DNA from: Zygnema cylindricum
Lineage: Eukaryota > Streptophyta > Zygnematophyceae > Zygnematales > Zygnemataceae
Reading direction: 5' to 3'
DNA: 48,443 nt
Assembly (NCBI GenBank): GCA_037447655.1
Contig: JBBHKE010001162.1
Coordinates: 137,264 to 185,706, forward strand
The position numbers and the translations under genes were made by a program. Positions 10,643-32,132 of this stretch are shown here, piece after piece; the first letter of the stretch is position 1, and each line of letters opens with the position of its first letter. The notes beneath the pieces are model-generated. The model was not told the DNA's origin and ran no database searches. It saw only the letters and a list, made by a program, of their open reading frames with translations.

Positions 10643-11385
10643 ACTTTTGGACTTGCAATATTGACAAAATTTGATGTATAAGGCACTTGGGGTCGAAGGA
10701 GACTGGTTGCTTTTCACTACTGTCTTTTGCGAAAACCCTCAAAAAATTGAACAACCCTTCTTTTGGAGAATCTTGGTGTTGTTTCCTACTCTAGTGCCAT
10801 CTTGGTTTTGGGATTTGTCTTGTGTGGAAATCACAGTCCGGGCGGGTAGTTGGCACTCTCTTCCTTTTTGGGTGATTTTGGACTTTTTGTTGTTTGGAAC
10901 CGGGAAGAGTCTTGTCGGTTCTGAGCTGCGAACACCGAAGGATGCAGGAGTACCATACCTTTGAAGATACTCTCGAAGACGGTTCTCTTTTCTCTAATTG
11001 TCATCGTTGATTGTTGGGGTATGTTAAGCTTGCTTCGCTACATTTCACATTTTTTATCTTTTATTCTCTTTTCTGGGGCAAGGTGATATTGTTAAATCTG
11101 GAAAGCCATTCCTATTTATTCATATATATATCTACGTGATAGTGCATTTGTGTCTTCTTCTAGAGTTCTCTTTGCTTTGGAGTTACGGTTCCGGAGTAAA
11201 TTGAAACCCCCTGTATCAGGACAGTGGGTTTTGAGGGAACAAATGCTATACACTTCCCGTAGACAACCCACATTACTGAAAAGCCACCTTGTCTTCTCGG
11301 ATTAGAGGGGATAGGAGCTTTCCCTTTGGAAGCCCTCTTTTTGGAAGTGCTATTCACGTTTCTTTCCCCCTACACCTCTTTCATC
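10643..11385 (+). mobile_element. Gypsy 5' untranslated leader, copy 1
   Basis: Non-coding sequence upstream of the gypsy gag, matching 23768-24512. The first 350 bp differ at roughly one base in ten from that copy, while everything after about 11116 is essentially identical. A TATA-like GATGTATAAGG occurs near 10673. The left side is cut by junction with a copia fragment at 10641-10643, so the LTR itself is absent. Confidence 0.6.
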
Positions 11386-13292
11386 ATGGGGGGAGGAGAA
11401 ACTCCGGATAACGGATTCGAAAAGAAAGGTCGATTGGAGAGGCCCTTGCCGGAAGGGAAATCTTTGAGGTCCGAGGAGTCGGAGCCCATGGAGACTGTTT
11501 TTGAATCTCCTGCCAATAAACCGGCTGGTGATTCTCATCCTCCTCCTCCGCCTCCAAGTTTGACTCCCGAATATTACCCTTCTTTGGCAGATGGCGCCAG
11601 GGCCCATGATGAGGAAAAGAGGGAAGCTAGGGCCCAAGCCCAGGAAAACGAACATGGTGTTTCCCAGGGCTCGGCCAAAGAGACAGGCGCAGAGGAAGTC
11701 CCATGTGGGTCCTCTTCCCGAGGTCGGGCTTCATACCCGATCCAAGATTCCCCGTGCCGAGATATAGATTGACCGCGTTGTTTTGACGGACCCACGTCGA
11801 CCAGTTCGTAAGGAACTCCTAGCTCTTCACGACCTCCATGAGCTGAAGGTGAAGAAGGAGTTGGTACAAAGAGTGGCTCCGACCGATCGAGTCAGGGTGG
11901 TTAGACCCGTGGAGGGGGTGGTGGAGATTTTGAGTAGTTCATCGGAGAGCAGCTCTTCCCAGTCGGTGCAGGACCGGTCCCAAAGAGCTCTCTAATCTCG
12001 CCCTCCCCCATCTTCCTCTCAGGACACTGCAGCCAACAGACCCACCCACGAAGGTACCTCTTCTCGGGTTCGTAGAGGAGAATGGGGTATCGAGAGGGGC
12101 GCACAAGATCTAGTGAGGGGAAAGAGATTTGACCACCGTGACAGCAAAGGGAGATTTGCACCTTTCCCTAAGGAGGAGACGTCAGTGACTCCCATTCCAC
12201 CCTCCATCGAGAGACCTGCTCCCAATTCACTCGTGTTTGCCCTACCAAAGGGCTCTGGAGATCTAGGTCTACCGATCCCGAGGTTCCGGGTACGGGACCA
12301 GAAGATTTGTCCGAAGGATGGTGGCGGACCAGACCTAATGATCTCGAAATTCCGGGAATAGAGATAGCGGATCTTAACAAAGTAGTGGAAAAAGCCAAGG
12401 AACTAGTGGAGGTTCTGAAATCCCAAGGACAGGCTACGCGGGGGCCGGACCCGCCACTGTAAATTGGGAGGCCTTAGAGGAAGAGAGGCGAAAGGCATGG
12501 GAACAAGAATTGGTGCTCATTAGGGAAGCTCGGCGTAGGACAAGTGGGATTCTTAGCGGGAAGATTCCTCCTACACCAAAGATAATGCCGCATTCAGAAG
12601 CCCCAGTAGCAAAGACCTCTCTTCTGGCCTGCACTCAGCTTGAAATGCCTTCTTCGGAGCCAAGCCAAGAGCCTCTCCTTCAGCGGAAAGGGGAGGAAAA
12701 CAGAGGACCTAATGTGGAGGGTTTGGGGTGGGATCTACCTTTTGGAAACGCTTCGGCTCTTCGGGGAGAGACTACCTTTGTCTAGGTGAAGGTGTGTATT
12801 GCTATGGAGGCTTTAGTGGAGTTACGACCTGACAAGAGGATTCACATCCCCTTGAGGGCTCCAACACCTCCTGTCACTTCTCCCAGAAAATCCTTGGAGC
12901 CCCCATCTTTTGCTCCTCTACCTTATTCCTCTCACTCCCAAGAACACACCACAAAACCCCAAGACTGTCCAGATTCCTCTCCTTCGCCATTTGTTTCTCA
13001 TGTTGTAGTTGTTCGTGGATTAATTGGTCCGCCTCTGTTATCCACCAAATACGACGTACCCGCCTATTCGTCGCATCATCGACGCTCCCCTTCCTCTTGC
13101 TCTGGAACTTCACCTACTGAGACATCTAGGAGGCGAACCAAGAGACAAACACCTTTCCCCGCAAGGGCTTCGCCGTCTCCTTCTACATTCCCTTCTCCGT
13201 CTCCGCCACCAGCAATTCCCGAACGACATCTCGAACGACCCCGATGCTCTCCAATCTATCCAACAAGGGTCACCTCTTCCCCACTTGACTAG
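11386..13292 (+). pseudogene. Gypsy gag N-terminal region, proline-rich, copy 1
   Basis: Starts MGGGETPDNG at the ATG at 11386 and passes through three frames (11386-11772; 11783-12361 with one stop; 12510-13292 with one stop). The protein is low-complexity: a Pro run near residue 55, Ser/Glu-rich stretches, then Pro/Ser-rich sequence. No zinc knuckle is present here; the knuckles of this family lie in the copy at 14384. It is joined directly to integrase sequence near 13220, so capsid C-terminus, protease, methyltransferase, RT and RNase H are deleted. Assignment to gag rests on position, composition and the integrase that follows, not on a recognised domain. Confidence 0.55.
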
Positions 13293-13681
13293 AGTTCCCT
13301 TATCCCGGGAACAGACCAGGATGGCTCCGTATGATTGGGACAGCGGCGTTCTCCTTCAGAAATGGTCATACGGTTCGAGGAAAGTGGTTCCGCCCCCCTC
13401 TGACTGAGAAACTCTGATTTCCAATCTCCATCGGCAATGTGGACATTTCGGGCAAAAGCGGACCACTTCCTTGGTTACGGGATCTTATTGGTGGCATGGG
13501 TTGCGGATCCAAGTCAACCAAATTGTGCAAACTTGCTCCTAAAGCGATCGCGTTAAGGTAGCTTTTGACAAGAAGGGAGGGACTGAGCTTCATTCGTTGC
13601 CTATCCAAGGGATGTTATATCGGTGGTCATTGGATCTTTTGGGACCTCTTCCGACTAGCAAGGGGGGGAACCGCTTTGTGT
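13220..13681 (+). pseudogene. Gypsy integrase N-terminal half, copy 1
   Basis: Frame of 13024-13407 and beyond: reads DALQSIQQGSPLPHLTRVPL, then the zinc-binding HHCC domain (HRQCGHFGQK ... QTCS, last Cys replaced by a stop) and the start of the catalytic core WSLDLLGPLPTS with the first catalytic Asp. It is interrupted at 13681, within the codons for RFVL, by a copia LTR. Two stops are present. Confidence 0.85.
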
Positions 13682-13830
13682 TGTTGAAAAGAGGTAATTA
13701 ATAGTTCACTTCTATATTTTAGTAAGAATATAAAGAGAGAGAAAAAGAGAACCAAAGGCACGCCATCGCTGCTGCGTCATTTAAGAGGGAGAATGAAATA
13801 AAATGTATTTTACTAATTCTATCAAAATAC

Positions 13831-13905
13831 TGCCTCTAGCCGGATTTGAACAATGGTCTACAGAATTTTATTTAGACCTTCGCCTTATCCATTAAGGCGG
13901 TAACG
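13831..13905 (-). repeat. tRNA-like block antisense within LTR
   Basis: On the minus strand: A-box-like CCGCCTTAATGGATAAGGCG with pairing D-arm halves, an anticodon-type stem GGTCT/AGACC around a 14-nt loop, then a B box GTTCAAATCC. It resembles tRNA-Arg. The acceptor stem does not pair. Related blocks are at 26958-27032, 32280-32354, 19731-19803 and 44812-44880. Confidence 0.6.
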
Positions 13906-14107
13906 AAACGATATACGTATTACGTTTCACGCATATTTATCTATTTGTTAAACGGGCTAATTTGCAGCAGACTAACGAAAACACGCATTAATCAATTCAT
14001 GCATGGAAGTAATCGAAGCCGCATAAATACAAATGATCGGACGGCCACAATTGCAGCCGCCACCCACAATAAACTTTTTGCGGCCTTTGGGGATAGCGTC
14101 ACGCGAC

Positions 14108-14252
14108 GCCACGTGGCACCATACTATTGGATATCGGAGAAGATGGGAGGAGGAACCATGGCTCCCGTTTTGACGACGTCACTTTGAAAGCCATGTCGTA
14201 CAATGGCCGTACAATAAGTACACCGCCTAATGTACCTTCTTGTACTATATAG
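14108..14252 (+). promoter_or_regulatory. LTR promoter: G-box, GTAC cluster, TATA
   Basis: Palindromic G-box GCCACGTGGC at 14108-14117, five GTAC cores at 14198, 14209, 14218, 14232 and 14242, and a TATATAG TATA box at 14246. G-boxes bind bZIP/bHLH factors and GTAC is the core of SBP-domain (SPL/copper-response) sites in plants. Spacing is kept in the other LTRs. Confidence 0.6.
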
Positions 14253-14383
14253 TTTTTCTATTGGACTAAGGTTTAGTAGTAGGCAGTCGTAAGTAGGCAG
14301 ACCAGGACTTAGTGAAATTTAGGTACCTCTCTCTAAGAGAGCTTGTAACTATAAAGGTCATCATTGACCAACCATAACTTACT

Positions 14384-15059
14384 AAAGCTTAAGGGGAAGC
14401 AAGTGGCTGACATCGCGTCAGAGCCAGCTATGGGAGCAGATGAGCAGGTATTTCTCTATAATTGCCTGAATTGTCAGCAACCGGGTCATGGGTGGAAGCA
14501 CAGCACAAGAAAACTTAAACCGGAGCTGGCTTTGAAATTTAAAGAATGGGAGAAAAAACGGGCAGAAAGGACCTTGGAATAGCAAAAAAGGCTCAAGGGA
14601 GGAAGGGGAGAGGACAAAACACCGGTAACCAAAGAAACTCACCGTCCAACTCCACGGAGCAAAACCTCTAAGATGTCCCATTCTCAGTTACGGCAAATCA
14701 AACTTCGAAAGTTTGATGACGCCTAAATCTCCAACAAAATCTGGAGTAAATATACTAGCGAGGGCGCCAAGTGCGAAGCTTGTGGATTTCTGGGGCACAA
14801 GGAAGGGCAATGTTTCAGGAAAAATGGAATACCCAAGGAAATGATGCAGTTTGCTTTGTTTACAGGGGAAGGGGACACCGCCGTTAACCCTCTACCCCTC
14901 CAACTCCTTTACCTAAGGGGACGCCAGCTCATGCCAACACCGGAGAGACCTGAGCGAGTTCTGGCTGCTCTAGCAAAGTTTACGCCGGAGATCATTATAC
15001 AGCAACAAAGTGAGCAGTTGGCCACGATGGCTGCACAGTTAGCTGCCCTCCGCCTGTGA
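14384..15059 (+). pseudogene. Gypsy gag C-terminus with two zinc knuckles
   Basis: One frame with scattered stops, continuous with everything down to the protease. First knuckle CLNCQQPGHGWKHS (about 14464) has its last Cys changed to Ser. Second knuckle CEACGFLGHKEGQC at 14772-14813 is a perfect C-X2-C-X4-H-X4-C. Between them lies a Lys/Arg/Glu-rich helix. Zinc knuckles of gag bind the genomic RNA. The N-terminal part is missing because the truncated copia LTR abuts at 14383. Confidence 0.8.
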
Positions 15060-15890
15060 TCTTCTTCACGACCTGCACCTCTTACAACCGCCCAACGACT
15101 CCAAAGGCAAAGACAGGAGTTGCTACAGAAGCTTGTGGAGCTTGAGCTTCAAAGCACAAAGGGTGCCAATGATGAAGACTTATTGGGTTGGGATTTAGAA
15201 CCCCCTAATGCCCACGATGCCCGTAGCTTCTTGGCCGGAGCTTGGAATGTTGGGGTAGGAGACAGTCGTCGCCAACTTCGCAACTCCACCTCGATGCATA
15301 GACAGGACCGACAAAAAATGGGTCAGAGGGATCACAACCGGAAAGCTACAAAGTCTTTGTCATTTACTCCCCGAGCCGTAATGTTGAACAACAACATCGG
15401 CTTAAGAATCAAGCCTAATCACCAGCCATCTCTTCCTCCCAAACCTAAATTGCCTCCCGGTTTTGAAAATTACAAGAACGAGAAACAGCAGCGAGAGAAG
15501 GACGTAGTGGAACAAGAGAAAAATGACAATCAGGATTGGTTTGAGAAATATATGGCCGAATGCCCGGAGAATGGTGCTCCCGAAACACCTCGTATTCCAA
15601 ATTCCGACTCAGAGAGTGAGCAAGAAGGACAACATCAAGATCAGCAGGAACCGAACTCATCTCCATCTTCACCAAACGCATTACTTCCCTCCTCCAAGCC
15701 GACTGTCATGCTATTCCAGCACCTTATGCCCTATGATCTCACACACATGAAGACTCTAGCATCGTCCCACAACCTGCCCGAAGAAATCCTCATTGAGGCA
15801 TTGGGAGAGGAGATCCACTCTGGAAAGGGGGGGGTAGACAAGACCACTCCGCCAACCGCTTTATTTTTGTCCACCGATCCTAAAACCCCT
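15060..15890 (+). pseudogene. Gypsy gag-protease linker, uncharacterised
   Basis: Same frame as the knuckles and the protease, open from 15120 to the stop at 15978. Gln/Glu-rich and acidic, with a predicted helix at the start (ELELQS), a Pro-rich PSLPPKPKLPPGFENY segment near residue 100, and a coiled acidic stretch rich in Glu/Gln/Ser. No domain recognised. Equivalent regions of plant gypsy polyproteins are poorly conserved, so little can be inferred. Confidence 0.6.
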
Positions 15891-16280
15891 ATATTGGATA
15901 GGGACTACAAAGCTTTATCAGTGGCTCTCATACTGAACAGAACCGGGAACTTCAAGCTCAACGGATACGGGGGATACTAGGACGCCGTGGTCAACACCAG
16001 AGCTCTCCCCAACATCATTACCAACTCCGCTTTGCAGAAGATGCCCGAGGAACTCCGGCCCGAAATCTGCCCAAGCAACATCTACTTAAACACTGTAAGC
16101 AGCGGCAGTCATCCTGTCCATGGAATAATCAAGGCCATGGATATCGAGTTTTCGGATGACGGAGGCCAACAGGTGAAAATTGAGCTCCCCTTCTTGGTGG
16201 TGCAAGGGACTCAATTCGAAATTATGTTGGGAATGGCCATCTGCACGCGGCTCAATATGAGTTTGAGCGTGTGGAAATAA
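15891..16280 (+). pseudogene. Gypsy aspartic protease
   Basis: Retroviral-type aspartic protease in the same frame. The active-site block reads AVVNTRALPNIITNSAL where the family has D-T/S-G-A, so the catalytic Asp is Asn and the Gly is Arg: catalytically dead. The flap/C-terminal block FLVVQGTQFEIMLGMAICTR matches the usual I-L-G-M/R signature. A TAG at 15978 and a TAA at 16278 interrupt it. Protease normally cuts the polyprotein during particle maturation. It is followed in frame by the linker to the methyltransferase. Confidence 0.8.
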
Positions 16281-16657
16281 CAGTGTACTGTTTCGGACCC
16301 CAAAAATCAGGAAGGAACCAAAGTGGTGGTTCCTCTGGATTTATGGAACCGGGGAAAGATAAATGTCCCAGTGTCTGGATGCTACGCGGTGTACAGTACA
16401 ACATCTCTGACGGAACTATTTGGCAGTTCCACCGAAATCGCCAAAGAAATCTAGCAATTCCCAATTTCGAAGCGGTGGGAAGAGGAATATAAGAATATAT
16501 TATTACAGGTAGCAAAACTCCGGTGGGGAGTGGATCAGGCATTTTCAGCCTTAACGTTGAAAGAAGCTACCTCACAGTCTAATGCTTCCAAACACAAGAC
16601 CAGTAAAAATGAATTCAATCGACAATTGGTGTCATTGGCAGTTTCGATTCCAGACTG
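16281..16657 (+). pseudogene. Protease-methyltransferase linker
   Basis: Frame continuous with the protease for about 125 codons with a single TAG. It contains a strand-rich start (TKVVVPLDLWNRGKINVPVS) and then a helical Lys/Glu/Ser-rich segment. No stop or LTR separates it from the methyltransferase, arguing that the latter is part of the polyprotein rather than a later insertion. No domain recognised. Confidence 0.55.
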
Positions 16658-17700
16658 CGTATTTTATCTTTATTTTCAGGAATTAGTTCTAATTTGGAAG
16701 CGGTCTTGAAACAGGATATGTAGTGGAGTCATACACAGCCATAGAAGTATCTCCCGACGCAAGGGCTGTCAGCGAAACATGGCCTCCACCAACTTCATCA
16801 CCTATATCCTCAAGAGCTTCCAGTATCCGCCTTCTCCAAAGCTCACCGTAGTCTTCCCCACATTGTAGAGAAAATCATGGCGACCCACATGGCTAGTTTG
16901 GGAAGAGTGGATTTGGTGTTGGCACGCTGGCCTTGTCAGGGATACTCCCTAGGAGGACAAAGAAAGGGGTATCAAGACCGAAGAAGTGGAACCTTTTTTT
17001 GGTTGATCAAATTAATCTCGTGGCTTCAACAGCTCCAGGAAACGCCCGTGGGGTACGTTCTGGAAAATGTCCACCTGGGAGATGATAAACGAAAACCGGT
17101 TGCGGACAAGTAGAATCATATAACCCGAATTTTAAGGGCTCCCTTAGTTTTCGACGCCGCACAGATGGGATCTCGGGCACACTGAGTCAGGGCATATTAG
17201 ACCAATATGATCCCGCTTCTAGTCATCCGACAACTGTTGGAGAAAGAAATCCCCGACCCAAAAAATTCCGTTCAACAAATAATCAGGGAAGGTAGAATAG
17301 CCAGACCTGTGACTCAACCCGATCCCCTACCTTTCTTCCTGTGCAATAGACCGCGATTCCCAAGGAAAGCCCTCCGACATTAGTCTCTTTCCCACACAGT
17401 AACACATATCGGAAAGGAACGGCAGGAATGATTTTTGACAACAAAGCGGGACTCTGGACAACACCAACGATCGCTGAACGGGAAGAAGCAATGGGATTTT
17501 GAGAAGCGAACAACGGCAACACCAGGTATTTTAGACCTTCAAAGGTGCAGCCTTATGGGGCAAATTATGGATTTGAATTCGGTCACATGGGTACTCAAGC
17601 ATGCACTCGCCTTTTCGAGTATTACGTCCTCGGAATCAAGGGCAATTTACCTTCAAGCTCCTCAGTCATTAGCGAGGCACGCAACTTTGCAGCTTGAGGG
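16658..17700 (+). pseudogene. C5 cytosine-DNA methyltransferase domain in gypsy pol
   Basis: A decayed C5-MTase catalytic domain of about 340 codons between protease and RT. Motif I (S-adenosylmethionine binding) is RILSLFSGISSNLEAVLK at 16658-16711; a one-base shift then gives ESYTAIEVSPDARAV (motif II-like). Motif IV with the catalytic Cys is DLVLARWPCQGYS (PCQGYS at 16931-16948), followed by DRRSGTFFWLI. Motif VI is VLENV (Glu-Asn-Val at 17063-17071). A motif VIII-like block FDAAQMGSRAH then a stop then VRAY lies near 17150-17200. C-terminal motif IX/X blocks are TPTIAEREEAMGF and LMGQIMDLNSVTWVL. The enzyme class flips the target cytosine and methylates carbon 5. The SGTFF and AHRVR-type blocks recall DNMT3/DRM more than bacterial enzymes; this is inference. 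Two frameshifts and at least five stops make it inactive. Confidence 0.88.
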
Positions 17701-17892
17701 GGGGAGATAAAGGAGAAGAAAAACCAAACTTCACATTTTACCGCCATAGGTTTTCCTAGTGGGGGGGGACAACGGCTCAGATGGCGACAGCTTAGCGGAA
17801 GTTGTCAGCAGCACTGTCTTAGCCGGAGAGGTAGGGGCAGATCCACCGGTAGGGTTAGAATTCGACATTAACCTCTGGGGTAGACCGCCGGA
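17701..17892 (+). other. Spacer between methyltransferase and RT
   Basis: Short G-rich stretch with a GGGGGGGGG run at about 17761. It encodes an acidic linker in the RT-upstream frame. No independent feature seen. Confidence 0.5.
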
Positions 17893-18981
17893 AGCTTAGG
17901 CTGCCGTTGAGCCAGGGAAAATGGATAGGACCCTGGGGGAGCAGTTGAACCCTTTGTAGAAGGCGGGACTCTTGGAGCTGTTGGCCGAAAACAAAGAGGT
18001 GTTCTCATGGTCAGAAACAGATGTCGGTATCTACAAAGGATCACCTTTCCGACTTGATTTGATCGACGAGACGGCTACTGTTTAGCAGAAGCTGAGTCCT
18101 CTCAATTTCAAGGAAAAGGAATTCATAACGGCTAAAGTCCAAACCTTGGTGGAAGCCGGATTCGTTCATAAAAGTACCGGACTTCATGGGTTTGCTTCCC
18201 CAACAGTCCTCCCTCCCAAAAAGGACTCGTCCGGGAAAACTGTAGATTTCTGAATGTGTGGAGACTATCGCATGATGAACACGACCACCATCTCTGACCT
18301 GTATCTTATGCCGACTCCGGAAGAGATTTTGGACTCTCTTGCAGGCGCTACTATATATTTCACTTTGGACATAAAGAATGGTTTCCACCAGATTGCAATG
18401 GAACCAAAGCATCGGGAGAGAATTGCATTTTGGGCAGGTTCCAGACTTTATGAATGGATTTATATGCCTTTTGGGCTTAAGATGCACCTGCAAAATTCCA
18501 ACGGGCAATGGACGAAGCGCTCCGAGGAGTCGATTGTGCCCGGTGCTATATTGATGATGTTATTATATTCTCAAAGACTTTTGATGAACACCTGGAGCAT
18601 ATCCAGATCGTTCTCCGTGCACTCCAAACAGCGGGCTTGAAATGTCACCCGGGCAAAGGCATTTTTGGGGTGCACTAAATCATTTACCTCGGACATGAGG
18701 TGACTTCCGGGACTATGGGTCCCCACATGGTCAAGGTGGCAGCACTTGACGCTCTTCCCCCACCACAGGACATCTCGGCCCTTAGCACTTTTCTGGGTCT
18801 GGCCAATTACTATCGGCGGTAAATTACTATCGGCGGTTTATCCCAGAGTTCAGCAGTCAGGCCCAGCCCCTTAACCAGCTACTGCGTAAAGACCAAGAGT
18901 GGCACTGGGCCGAAGAACAACAATTCTCCTTCCAGTTCTTCAAGGATGCTCTGAAGCAGCACCCCGTGCTCCGAATGCCTA
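17893..18981 (+). pseudogene. Gypsy RT and RNase H start
   Basis: Plus-strand RT of the Ty3/gypsy type in several frames. Visible blocks: N-terminal KEVFSWSETDVG and PFRLDLIDETATV; HGFASPTVLPPKKDSS; the palm block SLAGATIYFTLDIKNGFHQI containing the first catalytic Asp; MPFGLK; and the catalytic CARCYIDDVIIFS (YIDD at 18547-18558). Thumb/connection GLKCHPGKGIFGV and TFLGLANYY follow, and the start of RNase H before a copia LTR cuts in at 18982. A 17-bp tandem slip (ATTACTATCGGCGGT, about 18806-18837) breaks the frame. This RT is directly downstream of the methyltransferase in one element. Confidence 0.9.
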
Positions 18982-19348
18982 TGTTGAAATTAATAGTTTT
19001 ATTTGGTATTTTCTAGGTTAGAATTTAGTACAAATAAGAAAAAATAAAAAGACGGACAGCCTGCCTCCGCCTCCTCTCTCTTCCCCACCATATTTGTTCT
19101 AGTCACTGAGGGATAGAGAGGGTGGCAGCCATGGCTGTTCTAGCTTAAGCAGGCAGGGCTAAAGCGTGACTTATGTCACTCTCAACAAAAGGTTGAGTCT
19201 GGCAGGTCTCGAACCTCCGATCGGCAGAGCACGGCTTAGCCGTTAGCTCTAACCAGTCTGTCGTAGGAGTCCGTTGAGATACATTAGGTTTTGATTATTA
19301 TTTATACAATGTTACGTGTATGAATTCAGTTAACGGAATTACGAACGG
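18982..19348 (+). mobile_element. Copia LTR 5' fragment, plus strand
   Basis: Starts TGTTGAAATTAATAG at 18982 and is about 80% similar to the minus-strand LTR starting at 1327. It is cut at about 19348, where sequence of an oppositely oriented LTR begins. It carries the antisense tRNA-like block 19197-19266. Confidence 0.8.
19197..19266 (-). repeat. tRNA-like block antisense within LTR
   Basis: Minus strand: TGGTTAGAGCTAACGG as A-box region and GGTTCGAGACC as a B box (19205-19215). It is a sister of the block at 1046-1114 and retains the consensus D-loop better. Confidence 0.6.
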
Positions 19349-19977: not shown

Positions 19978-20176
19978 TTTTGGTACAAACTAAGTATTAG
20001 CCTATTCTCTCTCTCCTTGGACATTATAGACACCCATGGCTCTAGCTCTCTCTCCGGTCTTCAGTGACTGCAACAAGTACTGGGACTGGAGAGTTTGAGC
20101 GAGAAACAGGCTCCCTTTGCTACAATACTCTATTTATTTTTCCAATACAGACCTAGAGAATACAGCAATTTTAACA

Positions 20177-20718
20177 ACGGCCACCATCTCTAACCGGTAT
20201 CCGATGCCAACCCCGGAAGAGATATTTGACTCCCTTGCTGGCGCCACTATCTACTCCACTCTGGACATGAAAAATGGGTTCCACCAGATTTTAATGGAAT
20301 AAAGCACAAGAAGAGAACCGCATTTTGGGCCGGTTTAAGACTTTATAAATGGATTTGCATGTCATCCGGGCTTAAGGATGCACCGGCCAAATGCCAACGA
20401 GCAATGGACGAAGCGCTCCGAGGAATTAATTGTGCTCGGTGCTATATTGATGATCTTATTATATTCTTAAAAACTTGTGAGGAACACTTGGAGCATGTCC
20501 AGATCGTTCTCCGGGCACTCCAAGCAGCGGGCTTGAAATGTCACCCATGCAAAGGTATTATTGGGGTACAGAAGATCATCTACCTCAGACAAGAGGTGTC
20601 TCCCGGGACTGTGGGTCCCCACATGGTCAAGATGGCAGCCCTTGACGCTCTTCCCCCACCGCAGGACATCTTGGCCCTTCGCACCTTTTTGGGTCTGGCC
20701 AACACTATCGGCAGTTAA
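20177..20718 (+). pseudogene. Gypsy reverse transcriptase relic
   Basis: Starts within the RT at TATISNRYPMPTPEEIF, just after the copia LTR at 20176. Palm block SLAGATIYSTLDMKNGFHQI; a stop and frame change; then GLKDAPAKCQRAMDEALRG and the catalytic CARCYIDDLIIF (YIDD at 20443-20454). The thumb reads GLKCHPCKGIIGV and TFLGLANT. It is a different copy from the RT at 17893, with which it overlaps in content. Confidence 0.88.
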
Positions 20719-21345
20719 TCCCCAAGTTCAATAGCCACGCTTAGCCCCTCACACAGGTATTGCGGAAGGACCAAGAATGGTAGTGGGCTAAATAACAACA
20801 GATCGCCTTCAAGGTCTTGAAGGATGCTCTAAAGCAACACCCCGTTCTCCGGATGCGTGATCACCAGAGGCCTTTCCTCCTTTACACTGATTGGAGCACG
20901 TTTCGAGAGGTTTTGGCTCAAGTCGATGATGTCGGAGCTGAATATGTGGTGGCCTACACCAAGCGGAGCAACAACAAAGCAGAAGGAAGTTATAGCAGTT
21001 ACCACGGAGAGCTACTCGCAGCGGTTTGGGCAATCCAGCATTTTCGGCCTTATTAGTAGGGAGTCCGCTACTCGCAGCGGTTTGGGCAATCCAGCATTTC
21101 CGGCCTTATTAGTAGGGAGTCCATTTCATTCTGATTACGGATCACCAACCCCTAAAATGGATCATGGAAAGTTAACCGGCAAACTCGCCAGATGGGTTCT
21201 TATCCTGCAGGAATATGATTTCGACATTGTTTATAGGGAAAGGGAGATCCATGGGAATGCTAACGAACTTAGCCAGAATCTTGATCCCTCAACCATGGAT
21301 TCTACCGGGGCTCGGCATGATGAGGACACGGGGATCAGCTTGGGA
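20719..21345 (+). pseudogene. Gypsy RNase H relic
   Basis: Blocks in order: LKDALKQHPVLRM; PFLLYTDWS with the first Asp; VVAYTKRSNN; YHGELLAAVWAIQHFRP with the Glu; DHQP region with the next Asp; GKLARWVLILQEYDFDIVYR. A 56-bp tandem duplication (21011-21122) shifts the frame in the middle. RNase H removes the RNA template strand during replication. Confidence 0.85.
21011..21122 (+). repeat. 56-bp tandem duplication in RNase H
   Basis: 21011-21066 and 21067-21122 are identical except one T/C change. Both start GCTACTCGCAGCGG and end GGGAGTCC. Recent replication-slippage type duplication. Confidence 0.9.
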
Positions 21346-22700
21346 ATCATTCAAGCCTCCTCCGATTTCATCTGGCTTCCCCAATCTGGGGGGGAACTGT
21401 CAATTTTCTCTACCGATGTGGAGGAGCAGGCGCCCATAGGGGCCGAACGGAAGGACATCGTGAACGACCGCGATGCACTGTAATCTATATAGCAGGGGTC
21501 ACCTCTTTCCCACTTGACTAGAGTTCCCTTATCCCGGTGCCGACCAGGATGGCTGCGTATGATTGGGACAGAGGCGTTCTCCTTCAGAAATGGTCAGACA
21601 GTACGAGGAAAGTGGTTCCTTTCCCTTTTGACCGAGAAACTCTGATTTCCAATCTCCATCCGCAATGTGGAGACTTCGGGCAAAAGCGGACAAATTCCCT
21701 GGTTACGGGCTCTTATTGGTGGCATGGGTTGCAAACCCGAGTCAATCGAATTGTGCAAACTTGCTCATGCGATCACGTTAAGGCAGCTTTTGACAAGAAG
21801 GGCGAGATTGAGCTTCATTCGTTGCCTATCCGAAGGATGTTTTATTGGTGGTCGTTGGATCTTTTGGGACCTCTTCCAACCAGCAAGCGGGGGAACCGCT
21901 TTGTGCTGGTCATGATAGAACATTTTTCCAAGTGGATCGAGTAAGTGGTTTTGCTGCGGAAGGATTCCAAGGCAATTGCAGATGCCTTTTTGCAAAGGGT
22001 GTTGGCCCAATTCGGAGCGCCTGCGGAAGTTCTGACCGACCAAGGCTCCGAATTTGCCGAGAATTTTCCAATCTCGTGGAAAAATGCTTGGTTGACCATC
22101 GGCTAACCAGCCGTGACCACCCTCAAGCCGACGGTTATGCTGAAAGGTGCGTACAGACTGTGAAGCGGTCACTACGAAAATATGTCGTGGAAGAAGATTT
22201 GGGTGAGTGGGACAAAAAAGTGCCTAGGATTGCTTTGGGTTACAGATTTAGCAAGCAGGCTTCTCTCCACTCCTATAGCCCTTATTACATTCTATTTGGA
22301 CGACACCCCACCTTGCATGGAGCTGCATCAGCCCAAGCGGTGGTCCAACTAGAGTTGGATGACAAAGGGACAGTCAAAAAACTGATCGCCGACAGGGCCA
22401 AGGTATTCCACCGATAGATGCCTCTCAACATGGGCAATTTGCATGTGGCTCAACACCGAGATCAATTGTGGTATTCTCAGCGCCGGAGTAGGAATTATGT
22501 GCTCCGACAACGACGATTTATGCCAGGAGACTTTGTATATCGAATGCAACAGAAGAAGGACACGTTGGATATTTTTGCAGGGAGAGTAATATTGAAAGTG
22601 GTCGAGGTTTCCAACAAAGGGGTTCTTACATTGGAGGGGAAAGATGGTCGATGAATTAAAGAAAATCATATCAATGTGGCCCCCTACCATCTTCAGGGTT
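21346..22700 (+). pseudogene. Gypsy integrase relic
   Basis: Follows RNase H through an acidic linker (SGGELSIFSTDVEEQAPIGA). HHCC zinc domain: HPQCGDFGQK with the second His changed to Asp, and QTCSCDHVK. Catalytic core: WSLDLLGPLPTS (first Asp, about 21848), VLTDQGSEF (second Asp, about 22030) and ADGYAERCVQTVKRS (Glu, about 22140). After the core come LFGRHP and a GPY/F-type region FMPGDFVYRMQQKKD, VILKVVEVSNKGVLTLEGKDG. No chromodomain. At least three frameshifts or stops. Confidence 0.9.
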
Positions 22701-22916
22701 AAGACGGCGTGCTCACTTAACTTCTTTTTAGATCCTCCTTTTCTGTTAAATCTGTAATTTGTCCTCCCAAATACAAAACTTATTGGTGCCCAATCGCTGT
22801 GGCTGCTCCCATTCAGCTCAGATCCCTCCTCCGGGAGCCACACACCCCCCACCACCAGATCTCGTTCTCCGGGGCAGAAATGAGCGTGTAATTGTTTTCT
22901 ATCTTTAGTCACGGGG
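22701..22916 (+). pseudogene. Degenerate integrase tail with PHD remnant
   Basis: Corresponds to the PHD-type finger of the copies at 33860-34037 and 37110-37298, but only scattered ligands survive (CGCSH-type remnant followed by GATH/EPH). A G-run at 22913-22920 stands where the polypurine tract should be. Confidence 0.4.
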
Positions 22917-23214
22917 GGGGATATCAGCCCGATTACCGAGACCCTAACCCCTTCCCCCGGCCAAGGGAGGGAGGAAGGAAGAGGAGATAACTTTCGCCTT
23001 CCCCGTGCCATCATCCCTATTCCCTGCCTTCATCCCTATTCCCTGCCGATGCCTCTCTCCTATTTTGCATGCATATCAGTGGGAGTGATGCGGGCAGCAG
23101 TTGGTATGATTATCATTTTGGGAAGCATTCGCATTCGGGGATCATTTGAAGGACTCCAATGCAACAAATCCGGGGTGTGGGCCCTTCCCTCACGTTCATC
23201 AGGCACGCTCGACA
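22917..23214 (+). mobile_element. Gypsy LTR, about 298 bp
   Basis: Matches 34082-34380 and 37345-37629. All three begin GGGATA(T/G)CAGC after a G-rich tract and all three end GCACGCTCGACA, after which flanks differ completely, which defines the LTR as TG...CA of about 285-299 bp. Internal landmarks are TTTTGCATGCATATC and CATTTTGGGAAGCAT. Confidence 0.75.
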
Positions 23215-24512
23215 GCTGTCAAACTCATGTGTTTTTCAGGCACGCCTTTAGATCACCAAGGATTCCTAAGCCCTTTTTACCCTGTACGGTCTTCAGAGTA
23301 CGGAGGAGCGAGTACACCAAGCCGGAAGAAATCCTTGTATTTCCTTAATTGACCTAAACGCACTTTATTTGGCGCCAAACGGAGGCCGAATGACAAAGTT
23401 CTACCGTCTCAAAGATTGCAATTTCGTTATAGGGAACCATTTGCCACCAGCCCCCGTGGGGGGTACATTGCGGATTGCCACGTAACTTTCCGAATTTGCA
23501 TTTAGATTATGCTGGTAGCCGCCTGTAGGAATTTAGTTGAGCCTTGGCTGAATTTTTGTCCATTAATTACGTTAGGTCAAAGTCTGGCAAGTTAGTGTCA
23601 TTTTCAGGATTTTGTCTTATAATTGTGGACCGAATAAGTACTTCCGGCCGCGGATCTAGCCGCAGTCCGGAGCAAAACTTTTTGCCCCAAGTGAAGTACG
23701 GATTAATTTGTCTTGTGTCAGTTCAACTACATTTGCTTGCCGCCCATTGGTTAATAGCCTAGCTTTGACTTTTGGACTTGCAATATTGACAAACTTTGAT
23801 GTATAAAGGCACTAGGGGTCGAAGGAGACAGGTTGCTTTTCACTACTGTCTCTTGCAAAAACCCTTAGAAATTCGAACAACCCTTCTTTTGGAGAATCTT
23901 GGTGTTGTTTTCGACTCTAGTGCCATCTTGGTTTTGAGATTTGTCTTGTGTGGAAATCACAGTCTGGGCCGGTAGTTCGCACTATCTTCCTTTTTGGGTG
24001 ATTTTGAACTTTTTGTTGTTTGGAACCGGGAAGAGTCTTGTTGGTTCTGAGCTGCGAACACCGAAGGTTGCAAGAGTACCATACCTTTGACGATACTCTC
24101 GGGAGAGGGTTCACCTTTCTCTAATTGTCATCGTTGATTGTTGGGGTATGTTAAGCTTGCTTCGCTACATTTCACATTTTTTATCTTTTATTCTCTTTTC
24201 TGTGGCAAGGTGATATTGTTAAATCTGGAAAGCCAGTCCTATTTATTCATATATATATCTACGTGATAGTGCATTTGTGTCTTCTTCTAGAGTTCTCTTT
24301 GCTTTGGAGTTACGGTTCCGGAGTAAATTGAAACCCCCTGTATCAGGACAGTGGGTTTTGAGGGAACAAATGCTATACACTTCCCGTAGACAACCCACAT
24401 TACTGAAAAGCCACCTTGTCTTCTCGGATTAGAGGGGATAGGAGCTTTCCCTTTGGAAGCCCTCTTTTTGGAAGTGCTATTCACGTTTCTTTCCCCCTAC
24501 ACCTCTTTCATC
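23215..24512 (+). other. Leader or unknown non-coding DNA before gypsy gag
   Basis: 1.3 kb without a gene between an LTR end and the gag start at 24513. From 23768 it matches 10643-11385. It has a good TATA box, GATGTATAAAGGC (about 23801), and a TATATATAT run near 24250. Either this is the leader of the next gypsy copy sharing the LTR at 22917-23214, or part of it is another element's LTR. No standard primer-binding site was recognised after 23214. Confidence 0.45.
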
Positions 24513-26419
24513 ATGGGGGGAGGAGAAACTCCGGATAACGGATTCGAAAAGAAAGGTCGATTGGAGAGGCCCTTGCCGGAAGGGAAATCTTTGAGGTCCG
24601 AGGAGTCGGAGCCCATGGAGACTGTTTTTGAATCTCCTGCCAATAAACCGGCTGGTGATTCTCATCCTCCTCCTCCGCCTCCAAGTTTGACTCCCGAATA
24701 TTACCCTTCTTTGGCAGATGGCGCCAGGGCCCATGATGAGGAAAAGAGGGAAGCTAGGGCCCAAGCCCAGGAAAACGAACATGGTGTTTCCCAGGGCTCG
24801 GCCAAAGAGACAGGCGCAGAGGAAGTCCCATGTGGGTCCTCTTCCCGAGGTCGGGCTTCATACCCGATCCAAGATTCCCCGTGCCGAGATATAGATTGAC
24901 CGCGTTGTTTTGACGGACCCACGTCGACCAGTTCGTAAGGAACTCCTAGCTCTTCACGACCTCCATGAGCTGAAGGTGAAGAAGGAGTTGGTACAAAGAG
25001 TGGCTCCGACCGATCGAGTCAGGGTGGTTAGACCCGTGGAGGGGGTGGTGGAGATTTTGAGTAGTTCATCGGAGAGCAGCTCTTCCCAGTCGGTGCAGGA
25101 CCGGTCCCAAAGAGCTCTCTAATCTCGCCCTCCCCCATCTTCCTCTCAGGACACTGCAGCCAACAGACCCACCCACGAAGGTACCTCTTCTCGGGTTCGT
25201 AGAGGAGAATGGGGTATCGAGAGGGGCGCACAAGATCTAGTGAGGGGAAAGAGATTTGACCACCGTGACAGCAAAGGGAGATTTGCACCTTTCCCTAAGG
25301 AGGAGACGTCAGTGACTCCCATTCCACCCTCCATCGAGAGACCTGCTCCCAATTCACTCGTGTTTGCCCTACCAAAGGGCTCTGGAGATCTAGGTCTACC
25401 GATCCCGAGGTTCCGGGTACGGGACCAGAAGATTTGTCCGAAGGATGGTGGCGGACCAGACCTAATGATCTCGAAATTCCGGGAATAGAGATAGCGGATC
25501 TTAACAAAGTAGTGGAAAAAGCCAAGGAACTAGTGGAGGTTCTGAAATCCCAAGGACAGGCTACGCGGGGGCCGGACCCGCCACTGTAAATTGGGAGGCC
25601 TTAGAGGAAGAGAGGCGAAAGGCATGGGAACAAGAATTGGTGCTCATTAGGGAAGCTCGGCGTAGGACAAGTGGGATTCTTAGCGGGAAGATTCCTCCTA
25701 CACCAAAGATAATGCCGCATTCAGAAGCCCCAGTAGCAAAGACCTCTCTTCTGGCCTGCACTCAGCTTGAAATGCCTTCTTCGGAGCCAAGCCAAGAGCC
25801 TCTCCTTCAGCGGAAAGGGGAGGAAAACAGAGGACCTAATGTGGAGGGTTTGGGGTGGGATCTACCTTTTGGAAACGCTTCGGCTCTTCGGGGAGAGACT
25901 ACCTTTGTCTAGGTGAAGGTGTGTATTGCTATGGAGGCTTTAGTGGAGTTACGACCTGACAAGAGGATTCACATCCCCTTGAGGGCTCCAACACCTCCTG
26001 TCACTTCTCCCAGAAAATCCTTGGAGCCCCCATCTTTTGCTCCTCTACCTTATTCCTCTCACTCCCAAGAACACACCACAAAACCCCAAGACTGTCCAGA
26101 TTCCTCTCCTTCGCCATTTGTTTCTCATGTTGTAGTTGTTCGTGGATTAATTGGTCCGCCTCTGTTATCCACCAAATACGACGTACCCGCCTATTCGTCG
26201 CATCATCGACGCTCCCCTTCCTCTTGCTCTGGAACTTCACCTACTGAGACATCTAGGAGGCGAACCAAGAGACAAACACCTTTCCCCGCAAGGGCTTCGC
26301 CGTCTCCTTCTACATTCCCTTCTCCGTCTCCGCCACCAGCAATTCCCGAACGACATCTCGAACGACCCCGATGCTCTCCAATCTATCCAACAAGGGTCAC
26401 CTCTTCCCCACTTGACTAG
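24513..26419 (+). pseudogene. Gypsy gag N-terminal region, proline-rich, copy 2
   Basis: Predicted segments identical to those at 11386-13292, with the same frameshifts, stops and the same fusion to integrase. The shared lesions show that the deletion derivative was already dead, or trans-mobilised, before duplication. Composition is Pro/Ser/Arg/Glu-rich; no domain recognised. Confidence 0.55.
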
Positions 26420-26808
26420 AGTTCCCTTATCCCGGGAACAGACCAGGATGGCTCCGTATGATTGGGACAGCGGCGTTCTCCTTCAGAAATGGTCAGACGG
26501 TTCGAGGAAAGTGGTTCCGCCCCCCTCTGACTGAGAAACTCTGATTTCCAATCTCCATCGGCAATGTGGACATTTCGGGCAAAAGCGGACCACTTCCTTG
26601 GTTACGGGATCTTATTGGTGGCATGGGTTGCGGATCCAAGTCAACCAAATTGTGCAAACTTGCTCCTAAAGCGATCGCGTTAAGGTAGCTTTTGACAAGA
26701 AGGGAGGGACTGAGCTTCATTCGTTGCCTATCCAAGGGATGTTATATCGGTGGTCATTGGATCTTTTGGGACCTCTTCCGACTAGCAAGGGGGGGAACCG
26801 CTTTGTGT
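26347..26808 (+). pseudogene. Gypsy integrase N-terminal half, copy 2
   Basis: HHCC domain and first catalytic Asp region as in copy 1 (one residue different: Asp for Tyr in KWSDGS). The reading frame is cut at 26808 by the copia element and resumes at 33030 on its other side, an unambiguous case of nesting. Confidence 0.88.
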
Positions 26809-26957
26809 TGTTGAAAAGAGGTAATTAATAGTTCACTTCTATATTTTAGTAAGAATATAAAGAGAGAGAAAAAGAGAACCAAAGGCACGCCATCGCTGCT
26901 GCGTCATTTAAGAGGGAGAATGAAATAAAATGTATTTTACTAATTCTATCAAAATAC

Positions 26958-27032
26958 TGCCTCTAGCCAGATTTGAACCATGGTCTACAGAATTCTATTA
27001 AGACCTTAGCCTTATCCATTAAGGCAGTAACG
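26958..27032 (-). repeat. tRNA-like block antisense within LTR
   Basis: Minus strand: TGCCTTAATGGATAAGGC D-arm, GGTCT/AGACC stem, B box GGTTCAAATCTGG. Arg-like. Differs from 13831-13905 at several positions. Confidence 0.6.
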
Positions 27033-27234
27033 AAACGATATACGTATTACGTTTCACGCATATTTATCTATTTGTTAAACGGGCTAATTTGCAGCAGACT
27101 AACGAAAACACGCATTAATCAATTCATGCATGGAAGTAATCGAAGCCGCATAAATACAATTGATCGAACGGCCACAATTGCAGCCGCCACCCGCAATAAA
27201 CTTTTGGCGGCCTTTGGGGATAGCGTCACGCAAC

Positions 27235-27380
27235 GCCACGTGGCACCATACTATTGGATACTGAAGAAGATGGGAAGAGGAACCATGGCTCCCGTTTTGA
27301 CTGGCGTCACTTTGAAAGCCATGTCGTACAATGGCCGTACAATAAGTACATCGCCTAATGTACTTTCTTGTAATATATAG
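27235..27380 (+). promoter_or_regulatory. LTR promoter: G-box, GTAC cluster, TATA
   Basis: G-box at 27235-27244, four GTAC cores between 27326 and 27363 (a fifth mutated to GTAA), then ATATATAG. This is the copy driving the full-length element. Confidence 0.6.
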
Positions 27381-27686
27381 TGTTTTTATTCGACTAGGGT
27401 TTAGTAGTAGGCAATCGTAAGTAGGCAGACCAGGACTTAGTGAAATTTAGGTACCTCTCTCTAAGAGAGCTTGTAACTATAAAGGTCATTTTGACCAACC
27501 ATAACTTACTGCTCAGGGGAGCAAATTCAATGATTATTTTTGCGTTTGACTCAAGGGAGTCTTGTCCTCACACGGGTGAGGGTGGTTAGAATATTTGTGT
27601 GCTAGGGTGGCACTTATTCAGTGGGAAAGTAGAAGAGGCAAATATTGTCCTAGAGGCTTTACATAGGTTGCTCATTCTCTGGGTCA

Positions 27687-28669
27687 ATGGAGACCAAAGA
27701 ATTGCAGGTTATGGGCCCACCCTCTAGGGTGCCCATATTTGATGGATCAGACTTTCTTTATTGGGAAAAGATGATGGAGGGAGAACTATTTGAGAAACAC
27801 CTATGGGGCATAGTGTCTGGACAATTTGGATGCCCACCTCCACCTGGTTTTGGAGGAACGAGTTTTTTTGGCACCTCCGCCTCTACAGTAGGTAGAACAG
27901 CTGCCACCGTCACAGAGGATGAAGACGAGGAAGGAGAGGAGATTGTCATGGAAGGAGAAATGGAGGAGTTTCAACTCAAGTGACACCATTGCCGAAGGCG
28001 ATACCGGCAGCAACACCACTAGCAACGGCAACAAGGGTTCAGATCGAAAGATCGGAGTATGAAAAGTATAACTTCAAAGACAAGGTTGTTAAGCTCTTAA
28101 TTCTTACAAGTGTAGCAAAGGGCATTGCCATTTCCCTTATGCACGTCAAATCTTCATCTCAGATTTGGATATCTCTTATTAACAAATATAAGAGCGGATC
28201 ATTGCAGCAGCAACAGTTGGCAAAAAACAACAAGATTGCAGCTTATACTTATAAGGGAGGAAGCATGAATAATTATTGCAGTGATTTAGGAGCATTATTT
28301 GGAGAGCTAGAGAGTGCAGGTAACTCATGGTCTGAGAGACAAAGAGTGAACACATTAATGATGAAACTACCTGAAGAGTATGAGAATATCATTAATCGAT
28401 TGCAGGACATAGGAGATAGCAATTGGAATTGGGATGACACAGTGGGAATGATTTTAGTGAAAGAAAGCACCATAGAGCTTAGGAGAGGGAGTCGAAGTGT
28501 TCAAGCATTGTCTGCAGGAGCTGATTGGCGGAAGCGTGATGAGGAGAGAGAGAAAGATCCTTATCGAAACTTTGGAGGAAGAGGACAAGGAGGTGGCAGA
28601 TTTGATAGACAGGGGAGAGGAACTTCGCGAGGAGGATAATGTCACTTCTGCAAGAAACCGGGACACTAT
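27687..28669 (+). pseudogene. Copia gag
   Basis: Starts at the LTR-internal ATG (27687): METKELQVMGPPSRVPIFDG, then a Gly/Pro-rich segment and an acidic stretch. A frame change near 27980 leads to the UBN2 gag core (VKLLILTSVAKGI, SSQIWISLINKY, YKGGSMNNYCSDL, LMMKLPEEYENII, DTVGMILVKEST) and a Gly/Arg-rich RNA-binding tail. A TAA at 28637 lies immediately before the intact CCHC knuckle CHFCKKPGHYMADC (28640-28681). About 320 residues originally. It forms the particle shell and packages RNA. Confidence 0.9.
27707..27721 (+). other. Primer-binding site, half-tRNA iMet type
   Basis: GGTTATGGGCCCACC begins at the base after the LTR. It is in frame with gag, giving Val-Met-Gly-Pro after the LTR-encoded residues. 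Confidence 0.85.
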
Positions 28670-29290
28670 ATGGCAGATTGTGGCAAACTTACAGATCTTG
28701 GACTAAAAGATGGGCAAGGGAACTCAAAAAATGGAGGAAAGAAAAAGGCTTTCATAACTCAAGTTCATGATGAGCAAGAGAACAAAGAAACCGAACAGGA
28801 AGAGGAGCTTGAGGAGCTTGAGGAGCTTCTTCTTAATCCGAAAAACACTGAAAAGCATGTTGACATTCCACGGAGACAAAAGTGTGCTTTCGGAGGTAAG
28901 AGGGATCCACTTGAAGATGGGTGGATCATAGACTCAGGGGCCTCAATGCATATGTGCAAAGATAAAAGGTGGTTCACTAAATTGAGAAAGATCCCAACAG
29001 TTGAGATAGAGTACGGAGATGGTAGAGTAGAAACCACAAGTCTTGTTGGAACTGTTGACTTGAAGGTTTTAGTTAATGGAAAGGCCTCAATTGTAACACT
29101 CTCACAAGTTTTTTACATTCCACAGCTTAGTAAGAACTTGGTCTCGACAGCTATCCTAGATGAAAAGGAGTTTGAAACAGAAACTAGGAAAAGAATCTTC
29201 ACAACAAGCTTTGATAATGAGGTTTATTTCATAGCTGAGAAGGGCAGTCAGAGAATGTTCAGAATTATGCTTTGCAATGAAAATAGTGTT
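28670..29290 (+). pseudogene. Copia aspartic protease
   Basis: Same frame as the zinc knuckle. After an acidic Glu-rich linker comes GWIIDSGASMHMC with the catalytic Asp at 28931-28933 intact, then the strand blocks VEIEYGDGRVETTSLVGTVD and FYIPQLSKNLVST typical of the copia protease. No lesion inside this domain, so it is among the best preserved parts of the window. Confidence 0.92.
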
Positions 29291-30589: not shown

Positions 30590-31260
30590 CAAGTGGATCA
30601 CAGCTATAAATGAAGAAATGACCTCTATTATGGAAGCCAATACATGGGAGCTGGTAGATTGTCCACCGGACCGAAAACTGATCGGATGTAAGTGGGTTTT
30701 TAAACTTAAATTAAACCCGGATAATGCCATTGAGAGGTACAAAGCTAGGTTAGTTGCAAAAGGATATACTCAGAAAGAGGGGATAGACTACGAAAAAACC
30801 TTTGCCCCTGTAGTCATATTTCCTTCTGTTAGAATCCTTTTAAGTATAGCCACAGCGGAGGATATGGAAATCCACCAGATGGATATTAAAACGGCCTTTT
30901 TGCATAGAGAGTTGGAAGAAGAAATTGACATGAGGCAACCGGAAGGATTCATGGAAAGTGGGGAAGAAAACAAAGTTTGCAAACTGATAAAATCACTCTA
31001 TAGGCTTAAGCAAGCCCCACGACTATGGAATATAAAGCTCGACGAATTTCTGACAGGTTTGGGGTATACCAGAATTAGTTCAGATCACTCCATATATTTA
31101 TTTGAGGATGAGGATGGAGTTTTATTTATTGTTATTTATGTGGATGATTTGTTGGTCTTAAGCAAGTCATTAGATAAAATTAACAAACTAAACGGGATCT
31201 TAGAAGCCGCTTTGACATGAAAGATCTCGGCGAAGCAAAGTACATTTAAGGAATTCAAAT
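30590..31260 (+). pseudogene. Copia reverse transcriptase
   Basis: After a one-base insertion near 30577 the RT runs open from 30618 to 31220: ANTWELVDCP, GCKWVFKLK, ARLVAKGYTQKEGIDY, FAPVVIFPSVR, the palm MDIKTAFLHRELEEEIDM with the first Asp, IKSLYRLKQAPRLW, and the catalytic IYVDDLLVLS (YVDD at 31137-31148). A second frameshift near 31200 precedes FDMKDLGEAKYI. Catalytic residues are all present. Confidence 0.93.
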
Positions 31261-32120: not shown

Positions 32121-32132
32121 AATTAAGGGGAG
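32121..32132 (+). other. Polypurine tract
   Basis: AATTAAGGGGAG directly upstream of the 3' LTR start; the plus-strand primer site. Confidence 0.85.

Follow-up and report, generated by a model that had tools for sequence, protein, structure and literature searches.

Why should a retrotransposon carry the very enzyme that is normally used for silencing such elements? The question is raised by a locus of the streptophyte Zygnema cylindricum (contig JBBHKE010001162.1, positions 137,264–185,706; this whole stretch of 48,443 nucleotides is referred to below as the window), where a first-pass annotation had noticed the signature of a cytosine-5 DNA methyltransferase embedded at 16658–17700 in a gypsy polyprotein. 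According to the data described here, the locus is very probably a dead, truncated member of an old multi-copy Ty3/gypsy lineage, whose Pol polyprotein contains a DNMT3-type domain between protease and reverse transcriptase (RT) and a PHD finger after integrase, and this methyltransferase would serve for methylation of the element's own cDNA.

All motifs named in the annotation are present in the proper order, namely LSLFSGI (motif I), WPCQGYS (IV), VLENV (VI), DAAQMGSRAH..VRAY (VIII) and EREEAMGF with LMGQIMDLN (IX/X), which is also the order of 11 aligned database relatives (P0011, P0012 and P0015 being without parts of it). The PF00145 model scored significantly with one raw frame of 16283–17950, where stops were replaced by X (E 3.2e-6, 27.2 bits at a cut-off of 22), and with the domain alone, read across two frames (E 7.1e-7). 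A comparison with the DRM/DNMT3, CMT and MET1 types had been proposed, and DNMT3 was indicated by the PDB profile, the motif order and Foldseek alike. DNMT3A chains were the best PDB matches of the window domain (5.3e-6), and a profile of six relatives with 57 PDB matches gave 7.7e-22 for DNMT3A and 3.3e-9 for HhaI; both 4onj (“DNA methyltransferase”, which we take to be a DRM; 1.5e-12) and the DRM2 chains (6.3e-9) were aligned at about positions 2–129 only. The AlphaFold2 model of relative P0001 has a mean predicted local distance difference test score (pLDDT) of 65.9 as a whole, and mostly 77–94 in ten-residue blocks of its methyltransferase (residues 31–360, with low blocks at 131–140 (65), 261–270 (55) and 281–300 (65–70)); among the Foldseek matches listed for this predicted structure all 50 were DNMT3 entries. 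Thus, by its unrearranged motif order (I-IV-VI-VIII-IX-X) and its best matches the enzyme is of the DNMT3 type. The DRM type was rejected on account of its rearranged motif order and the partial span of the DRM2 matches. MET1 and CMT enzymes are marked by a BAH or chromodomain and a DNMT1-type catalytic domain; they were rejected as well, since neither accessory domain appeared among Pfam matches of the reading frames of two genomic copies (L042 and L046, see below) and no DNMT1- or CMT-named chain among the 57 PDB matches.

The annotation also placed the domain between protease and RT and regarded the preceding linker as continuous with the protease frame, and both statements were confirmed (Table 1). 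Frame 0 covers gag, protease and linker, continues to about 16650 and is interrupted by 6 stops (in about 743 codons), while methyltransferase and RT are mostly in frame 2, where 7 stops were counted over 17538–18660. Two zinc knuckles lie near 14464 and 14771, as described. The protease gave no match in a single-sequence Pfam scan, and its limits were set by tblastn; RT was recognised by RVT_1 at 2.8e-6 (27.6 bits, slightly below the cut-off of 29.6). On the left the fragment adjoins a piece of copia long terminal repeat (LTR), and on the right it is cut at the start of RNase H. Being cut in gag at 14384 and again at 18981, and interrupted by stops and frame changes, this methyltransferase-bearing copy is dead.

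A protein search supplied relatives in which PF00145 and RT are combined in a single protein; of 7,992 proteins scored, 397 had E values not above 1, and 120 of these were listed. Residues 29–661 of P0002 (1,494 aa) were aligned with 16643–18481 as one tblastn segment (40.7%, 442 bits; E 4.5e-172 for the linked set), and the later part of this protein with two other family copies of the window, A and C. P0003 unites two zinc knuckles, an aspartic protease motif, methyltransferase and RT; its residues 217–745, a stretch starting just ahead of its second knuckle, match window 14736–16346 in the gag-protease part (tblastn, 24.7%, E 6.7e-31). The spacing of the linker between protease and methyltransferase is conserved in relatives. 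The methyltransferase profile matched 18 of the 120 listed proteins; most other close rows start at or just before RT and are therefore uninformative on this domain.

The same arrangement is widespread in the Zygnema genome (352,776,454 bases in 2,689 contigs, the window lying in contig C870). PF00145 gave at least 123 scored rows (782 candidates), which may include host methyltransferase genes, and 12 of the 123 lie in open frames of at least 900 aa. The window methyltransferase DNA recurs in at least 39 other places at 79–89% identity (40 scored of 493 candidates). In the nine nearest copies fetched besides the window, RT was found downstream in eight (all except L072) and protease upstream in six. 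Window 15158–19130 (L070) is 87–88% identical to L071, L073 and L078 and 77–79% to L077 and L072; region 14385–18979 was aligned in one piece with L045, L055 and L056 (68%) and in two pieces with L046. Twenty loci were fetched from the 123 rows, mainly for their long open frames, and their intactness is therefore not typical. RT follows on the same strand in 19 of them (in L060 it was registered on the opposite strand alone), and 16 have a PHD-type match downstream. One group of these loci, L045, L046, L052, L055 and L056, forms subfamily I together with the window; the other fetched loci make up subfamily II.

An intact gypsy copy with the order of domains envisaged in the annotation does exist. 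In L042 a single uninterrupted frame of 2,394 aa encodes zinc knuckle, protease, methyltransferase, RT, RNase H, integrase and PHD finger. The zinc knuckle (0.0086) and Asp_protease_2 (0.012, below the cut-off) are weak by Pfam, DNA_methylase reaches 44.4 bits, and then come RVT_1, RT_RNaseH, Integrase_H2C2, rve and PHD. With 38.1 bits at a cut-off of 24 the latter supports the PHD finger that the annotation mentioned at the far end of the family; it is weaker in the L046 frame (17.5 bits, below the cut-off) and in the window, where the PHD-like tail belongs to copy C (0.14 by Pfam alone) and is absent from the truncated methyltransferase-bearing fragment. The sequence of protease, RT, RNase H and integrase typical for Ty3/gypsy was observed both in L042 and in the window fragment complemented by copies A and C. 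Because of the many copies, the collinear relatives such as P0002 and the uninterrupted frames, the methyltransferase is, as the annotation had supposed and as judged from the alignments, a standing part of the element and not a one-off insertion. One more RT copy of the family (G000:C961:71776-72564) has methyltransferase upstream and was reported to lie in an open frame of 5,743 aa.

Differences between copies may carry a trace of base modification. C-to-T changes of the window copy against L071, L073 and L078 were found at rates of 0.11–0.13 in CG and CHG versus 0.06 in CHH; the differences in the reverse direction had lower rates with the same contrast. In comparison with L077 and L072, which are more distant, the contrast was weak (0.14–0.17 versus 0.11). 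Plants methylate CG and CHG, and this pattern may hint at a host of that kind, with which it is compatible.

The history of the domain was approached with RT and methyltransferase trees for 30 rows from which both domains could be cut. Both trees agree on a group of P0003, P0001, P0002 and subfamily I with the window, on a group of P0018 and subfamily II, and on a group of P0010 and Closterium rows; relations between groups and the places of P0004, P0005 and L029 differ or are unsettled between them. The simplest reading would be one early capture of the methyltransferase followed by vertical inheritance. A clean protease–RT junction, which the annotation named as the sign of a one-off insertion, was found in none of the 39 genomic RT rows resolved among the first 100 of 145 (145 scored of 3,332 candidates), a partial check. 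For at least 35 of these 100 rows a methyltransferase row was listed no more than 2.5 kb upstream, and the distances are clustered (758–946 or 388–418 bp); the row of the window itself and three short side rows had been dropped from the methyltransferase list. Four further RT rows without a listed match, for which 1 kb upstream was fetched, all showed the domain. In the other copies of the window the cut lies at the start of RT or beyond it, which makes them uninformative on this junction.

The termini of the elements are unusual. In L042 repeat A1 (931 bp) is followed by the coding part, B1 (242 bp), A2 (931 bp, identical to A1) and B2 (243 bp), and the same A–ORF–B–A–B plan (ORF, open reading frame) was registered in L047, with A of 1,388 bp at 99.6% and B of 190 bp at 99.5%; in L043 the B pair is present (97.8%), truncated where the fetched stretch ends. 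Target duplications, TTGG in L042 and AAAGG in L047, are located exactly outside A1 and B2. Thus, the only two copies in which both termini were found have the 4–6 bp duplication and the TG...CA ends (TGTCATGCC...GCACGACA) of Ty3/gypsy, and instead of two plain identical LTRs they show A1–ORF–B1–A2–B2. The element is gypsy by its domains and irregular by its repeats. Since repeat A is identical over 931 bp in L042 and 99.6% identical over 1,388 bp in L047, these would be very young copies pointing to recent activity. The B1|A2 junction, GCACGACA-GC-TGTCATG, was present in 8 of 20 loci and in a looser form in L052, L056 and window copy A, which terminates at 23211 with such a site (...GCTCGACA-GC-TGTCA). 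The junction GACA-GC-TGTC resembles joined DNA ends, and its halves are near inverted repeats. A run of G immediately precedes B1 in all five loci inspected. Split direct repeats of the A–ORF–B–A–B type, as seen in L042 and L047, are characteristic of DIRS elements, which are not known to make target duplications. Membership in that group was rejected because of the DDE integrase (rve) and the target duplications, and no tyrosine recombinase family was among the Pfam matches of L042 and L046.

Based on this structure one can imagine the following cycle. The methyltransferase would be packaged together with RT as part of Pol. RT would make ordinary linear DNA with an LTR composed of B and A, the G-run standing directly before B1; the ends of this cDNA would then join into a circle, and integrase would open the circle at the internal B|A junction to obtain its two ends, leaving A–ORF–B–A–B flanked by target duplications of 4–5 bp. 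The A–ORF–B–A–B plan suggests a cDNA circle before integration, and circular DNA would therefore be a natural substrate of the methyltransferase. We infer that the enzyme methylates the element's new cDNA, which would enter the genome already marked, while the PHD finger may help to place integration in chosen chromatin. Only tentatively, with rather less than even confidence, do we suggest that integrase-bearing elements of this kind integrate from a circle and that methyltransferases recur in elements with a circular stage, where circular cDNA would need marking before genome entry. DIRS (with an adenine-type enzyme), SymbioDIRS, KnitGypsy and the present lineage (all three with DNMT3) could, with the same reserve, be cited for this link. 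Co-occurrence of split repeats and methyltransferases in several elements makes the connection between methylation and a circular intermediate testable.

Several observations do not favor this interpretation and have to be set against it. Methylation was not observed when the gypsy methyltransferase of Klebsormidium nitens was assayed in yeast, a result regarded by its authors as inconclusive (PMC5890265, available text). In pattern searches of the fetched loci ERE..AMGF-type motif IX/X was found in four loci of subfamily I, and no match to such patterns was obtained in subfamily II. Because of this distribution and of Glu preceding the catalytic Cys, activity of the subfamily II enzymes is uncertain. 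Selection was estimated from the ratio of nonsynonymous to synonymous substitutions (dN/dS) for ten undamaged methyltransferase segments, a sample restricted to stop-free segments with at least 93% probe coverage. Among 45 pairs dS was usable in 8, where the ratio was 0.13–0.39; two other pairs were nearly identical, and in the rest dS was saturated, with dN of 0.11–0.18 within subfamily II and about 0.6 between subfamilies. RT gave 0.02–0.17 (8 of 66 pairs) and integrase 0.08–0.45 (4 of 36 pairs). The methyltransferase values lie above those of RT, and the domain is therefore, by this measure, under purifying selection in close pairs, less strictly than RT, and it is this laxity that counts here. 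As to relatives without the domain, two proteins from outside the Zygnema genome, P0041 and P0020, combine a protease motif with RT and lack a methyltransferase in the interval. In the RT tree, built with the first 62 of the 120 listed proteins, they fall inside a clade of 49 rows (support 100/99) and outside the 42 rows that comprise every methyltransferase carrier, the separating fork having support of 87/80, which is not firm in a tree that includes one out-of-frame row. Finally, termini were fully read in two copies only, both of subfamily II, and the fetched flanks of L045 and L046, from the window's own subfamily I, contained no terminal repeats; the split-repeat plan is therefore unproven for subfamily I, despite the junction in window copy A. 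As a separate observation, the distance between protease motif and RT in P0020 is about 1,200 aa, and no methyltransferase was detected there.

Action of the enzyme in trans on the host genome, silencing rivals or limiting the element's own copy number, is in our estimate unlikely. Many copies are indeed present, and host-wide effects and slower retrotransposition are discussed by de Mendoza and colleagues (PMC5890265, available text), but in several uninterrupted frames the enzyme is fused into Pol, upstream of RT, and this ties it to the particle.

Somewhat less probable still is that the domain acts on RNA or is a structural component of Pol that only binds nucleic acid, DNA methylation not being the selected activity. 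Pro-Cys in motif IV is the rule for C5-methyltransferases. It is kept in the window, subfamily I and P0001–P0003, and replaced by Glu-Cys in subfamily II, in the eight Closterium rows spanning this motif and in P0004, P0005 and P0010; this replacement is what a structural or RNA-directed role might predict, and the missing IX/X pattern and the inactivity in yeast agree with it. Single database rows deviate elsewhere (motif VI is LEHL in P0008, and AHR is lacking in P0012 and P0015). Against such a role, all 20 fetched loci have the catalytic Cys and LEN in motif VI, 17 of them have AHRVRxxW in motif VIII (it is missing in L052, L060 and L061), the window's own subfamily retains Pro-Cys, and the closest folds of the predicted model are those of DNMT3.

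We give little credence to the idea that the A–ORF–B–A–B ends are ordinary LTRs rearranged after insertion and reflect nothing of the replication cycle. The small number of fully read copies and the bare flanks of L045 and L046 would suit it, but one and the same plan in L042 and L047, the B pair of L043, target duplications placed exactly outside A1 and B2, and the recurring B1|A2 junction, with its relative in window copy A, would not, and the same plan is published for K. nitens (PMC5890265, available text). As for a single host methyltransferase gene or retrocopy inserted by chance into one dead gypsy copy, the degraded and truncated state of the window copy and the absence of a second window stretch matching 14384–18062 at the DNA level (self-blast) might recall it, but the multi-copy collinear family, the 2,394-aa frame and the agreeing trees leave it practically no room.

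Bacterial or phage origin of the domain was considered and rejected. A profile scan of viral_contigs gave 28 loci with short best segments, 28–46% identical; single-sequence scans of the same set gave no match, nor did two protein searches scored on the methyltransferase alone. In genome_contigs the profile found five loci, one of which, L029, was matched over the whole domain (45%). Its contig is labelled as a cyanobacterial metagenome-assembled genome, and it has two frames, one with protease (weak) and DNMT and the other with RT, RNase H, integrase and PHD; because of these frames it is probably a eukaryotic contaminant.

The first-pass annotation expected a new or little-described architecture, and this holds in part. 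For K. nitens a DNMT3 encoded within the Pol frame of gypsy elements has already been published, together with DIRS-like repeats and purifying selection (de Mendoza et al. 2018, PMC5890265, available text), and new here are the domain order with a PHD finger, the breadth of the clade, the target duplications, the circle-junction-like site and the Glu-Cys variant. KnitGypsy-Dnmt3 and the Zygnema lineage share an unrearranged DNMT3 inside the gypsy Pol frame, the absence of introns, purifying selection and DIRS-like repeats combined with gypsy domains. The available description of KnitGypsy-Dnmt3, by which alone the two were compared, does not say how its domains are ordered with respect to protease and RT, and it mentions neither a PHD finger nor target duplications. 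On the Zygnema side the genome is larger and contains many copies, the clade extends to Closterium and metagenome contigs, and Glu-Cys variants occur. No Klebsormidium-named row was among the 120 of 397 proteins listed.

Two Symbiodinium elements from the same paper, SymbioDIRS-Dnmt3 and SymbioLINE-Dnmt, likewise carry a methyltransferase in a retrotransposon coding region, and SymbioDIRS has A–ORF–B–A–B repeats as in the Zygnema copies; as far as the available text goes, DIRS uses a tyrosine recombinase and LINE is without LTR-type repeats, whereas the Zygnema element has a DDE-type integrase and target duplications. Plant DNMT3 genes (Yaari et al. 2019, PMC6453930, available text) have the same type of catalytic domain, but these are host genes with a C-terminal DUF3444, while here the domain is part of Pol. 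A gypsy element of Phalaenopsis orchids with an AlkB demethylase of N6-methyladenosine (m6A) also acquired a nucleic-acid-modifying enzyme, although a different one and in an additional ORF (PMC9289625, available text). A 2025 survey reports some DNMT3 members in retrotransposons of streptophytes and dinoflagellates and, in its available part, names LTR Copia where the 2018 paper has Gypsy (PMC12344493; PMC5890265). According to the accessible part of a 2019 opinion, land plants have no transposons that carry DNA methylases (PMC6338049), and the words methyltransferase, methylase and PHD do not occur in the main text of a plant LTR survey (word search, PMC6317226). Full-text literature searches, judged by the titles and abstract openings listed and with subscription papers, preprints and figures outside their scope, revealed no other DNMT-bearing gypsy lineage. 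Because of its several uninterrupted frames, at least two very young copies, both Pro-Cys and Glu-Cys variants, the PHD finger and readable target duplications, the Zygnema lineage seems to be a good place to ask for the role of the methyltransferase.

Table 1. Features of the Ty3/gypsy lineage identified in the window
Feature	Position	Strand	Evidence and remarks
Ty3/gypsy fragment, truncated	14384–18981	+	From gag nucleocapsid to start of RNase H; methyltransferase inside
Two gag zinc knuckles	14464–14812	+	CLNCQQPGHGWKHS, degenerate; CEACGFLGHKEGQC, canonical CCHC spacing; read from the sequence
Aspartic protease, decayed	about 15894–16346	+	tblastn with P0003 protease region, 35%, E 3.7e-22 on L070
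Linker protease–methyltransferase	16347–16657	+	In protease frame
DNMT3-type C5 DNA methyltransferase domain	16658–17630	+	Motifs I to X; stops and frame changes; PF00145
Linker methyltransferase–RT	17631–18058	+	RT frame; unbroken alignment to P0002
RT and first part of RNase H	18059–18981	+	P0002 and P0007 tblastn; cut at 18981
Copy A: part of RT, RNase H, integrase, tail	20171–23214	+	P0002 tblastn; 74–75% DNA identity to L045/L046
Copy B, integrase part left of nested copia	26348–26810	+	Self-blast, P0002 tblastn
Copy B, integrase to 3' end, right of nested copia	33030–34383	+	Self-blast, P0002 tblastn; adjoins start of copy C
Copy C: RT to PHD-like tail	34374–37632	+	P0002 residues 522–636 (60%) and 647–1488 (54%)

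Among the other family copies of the window, copy C contains an integrase zinc domain (4.6e-16). The 5' end of copy B was searched for beside the expected target duplication, and none was found. This copy is split by a fairly well kept copia element (26809–33030, LTRs 93% similar) nested in it. The methyltransferase fragment and copy A are flanked by a 3.7-kb direct repeat (10643–14383 and 23768–27510, 98.5%). Its right copy runs on into the adjoining copia element and its left copy is cut in the LTR of that element, because of which the pair looks like a segmental duplication rather than LTRs. No tRNA was detected in the window. Directly after copy C lies a piece of DUF659 transposase (37630–37962, 1.3e-9), presumably hAT-like.
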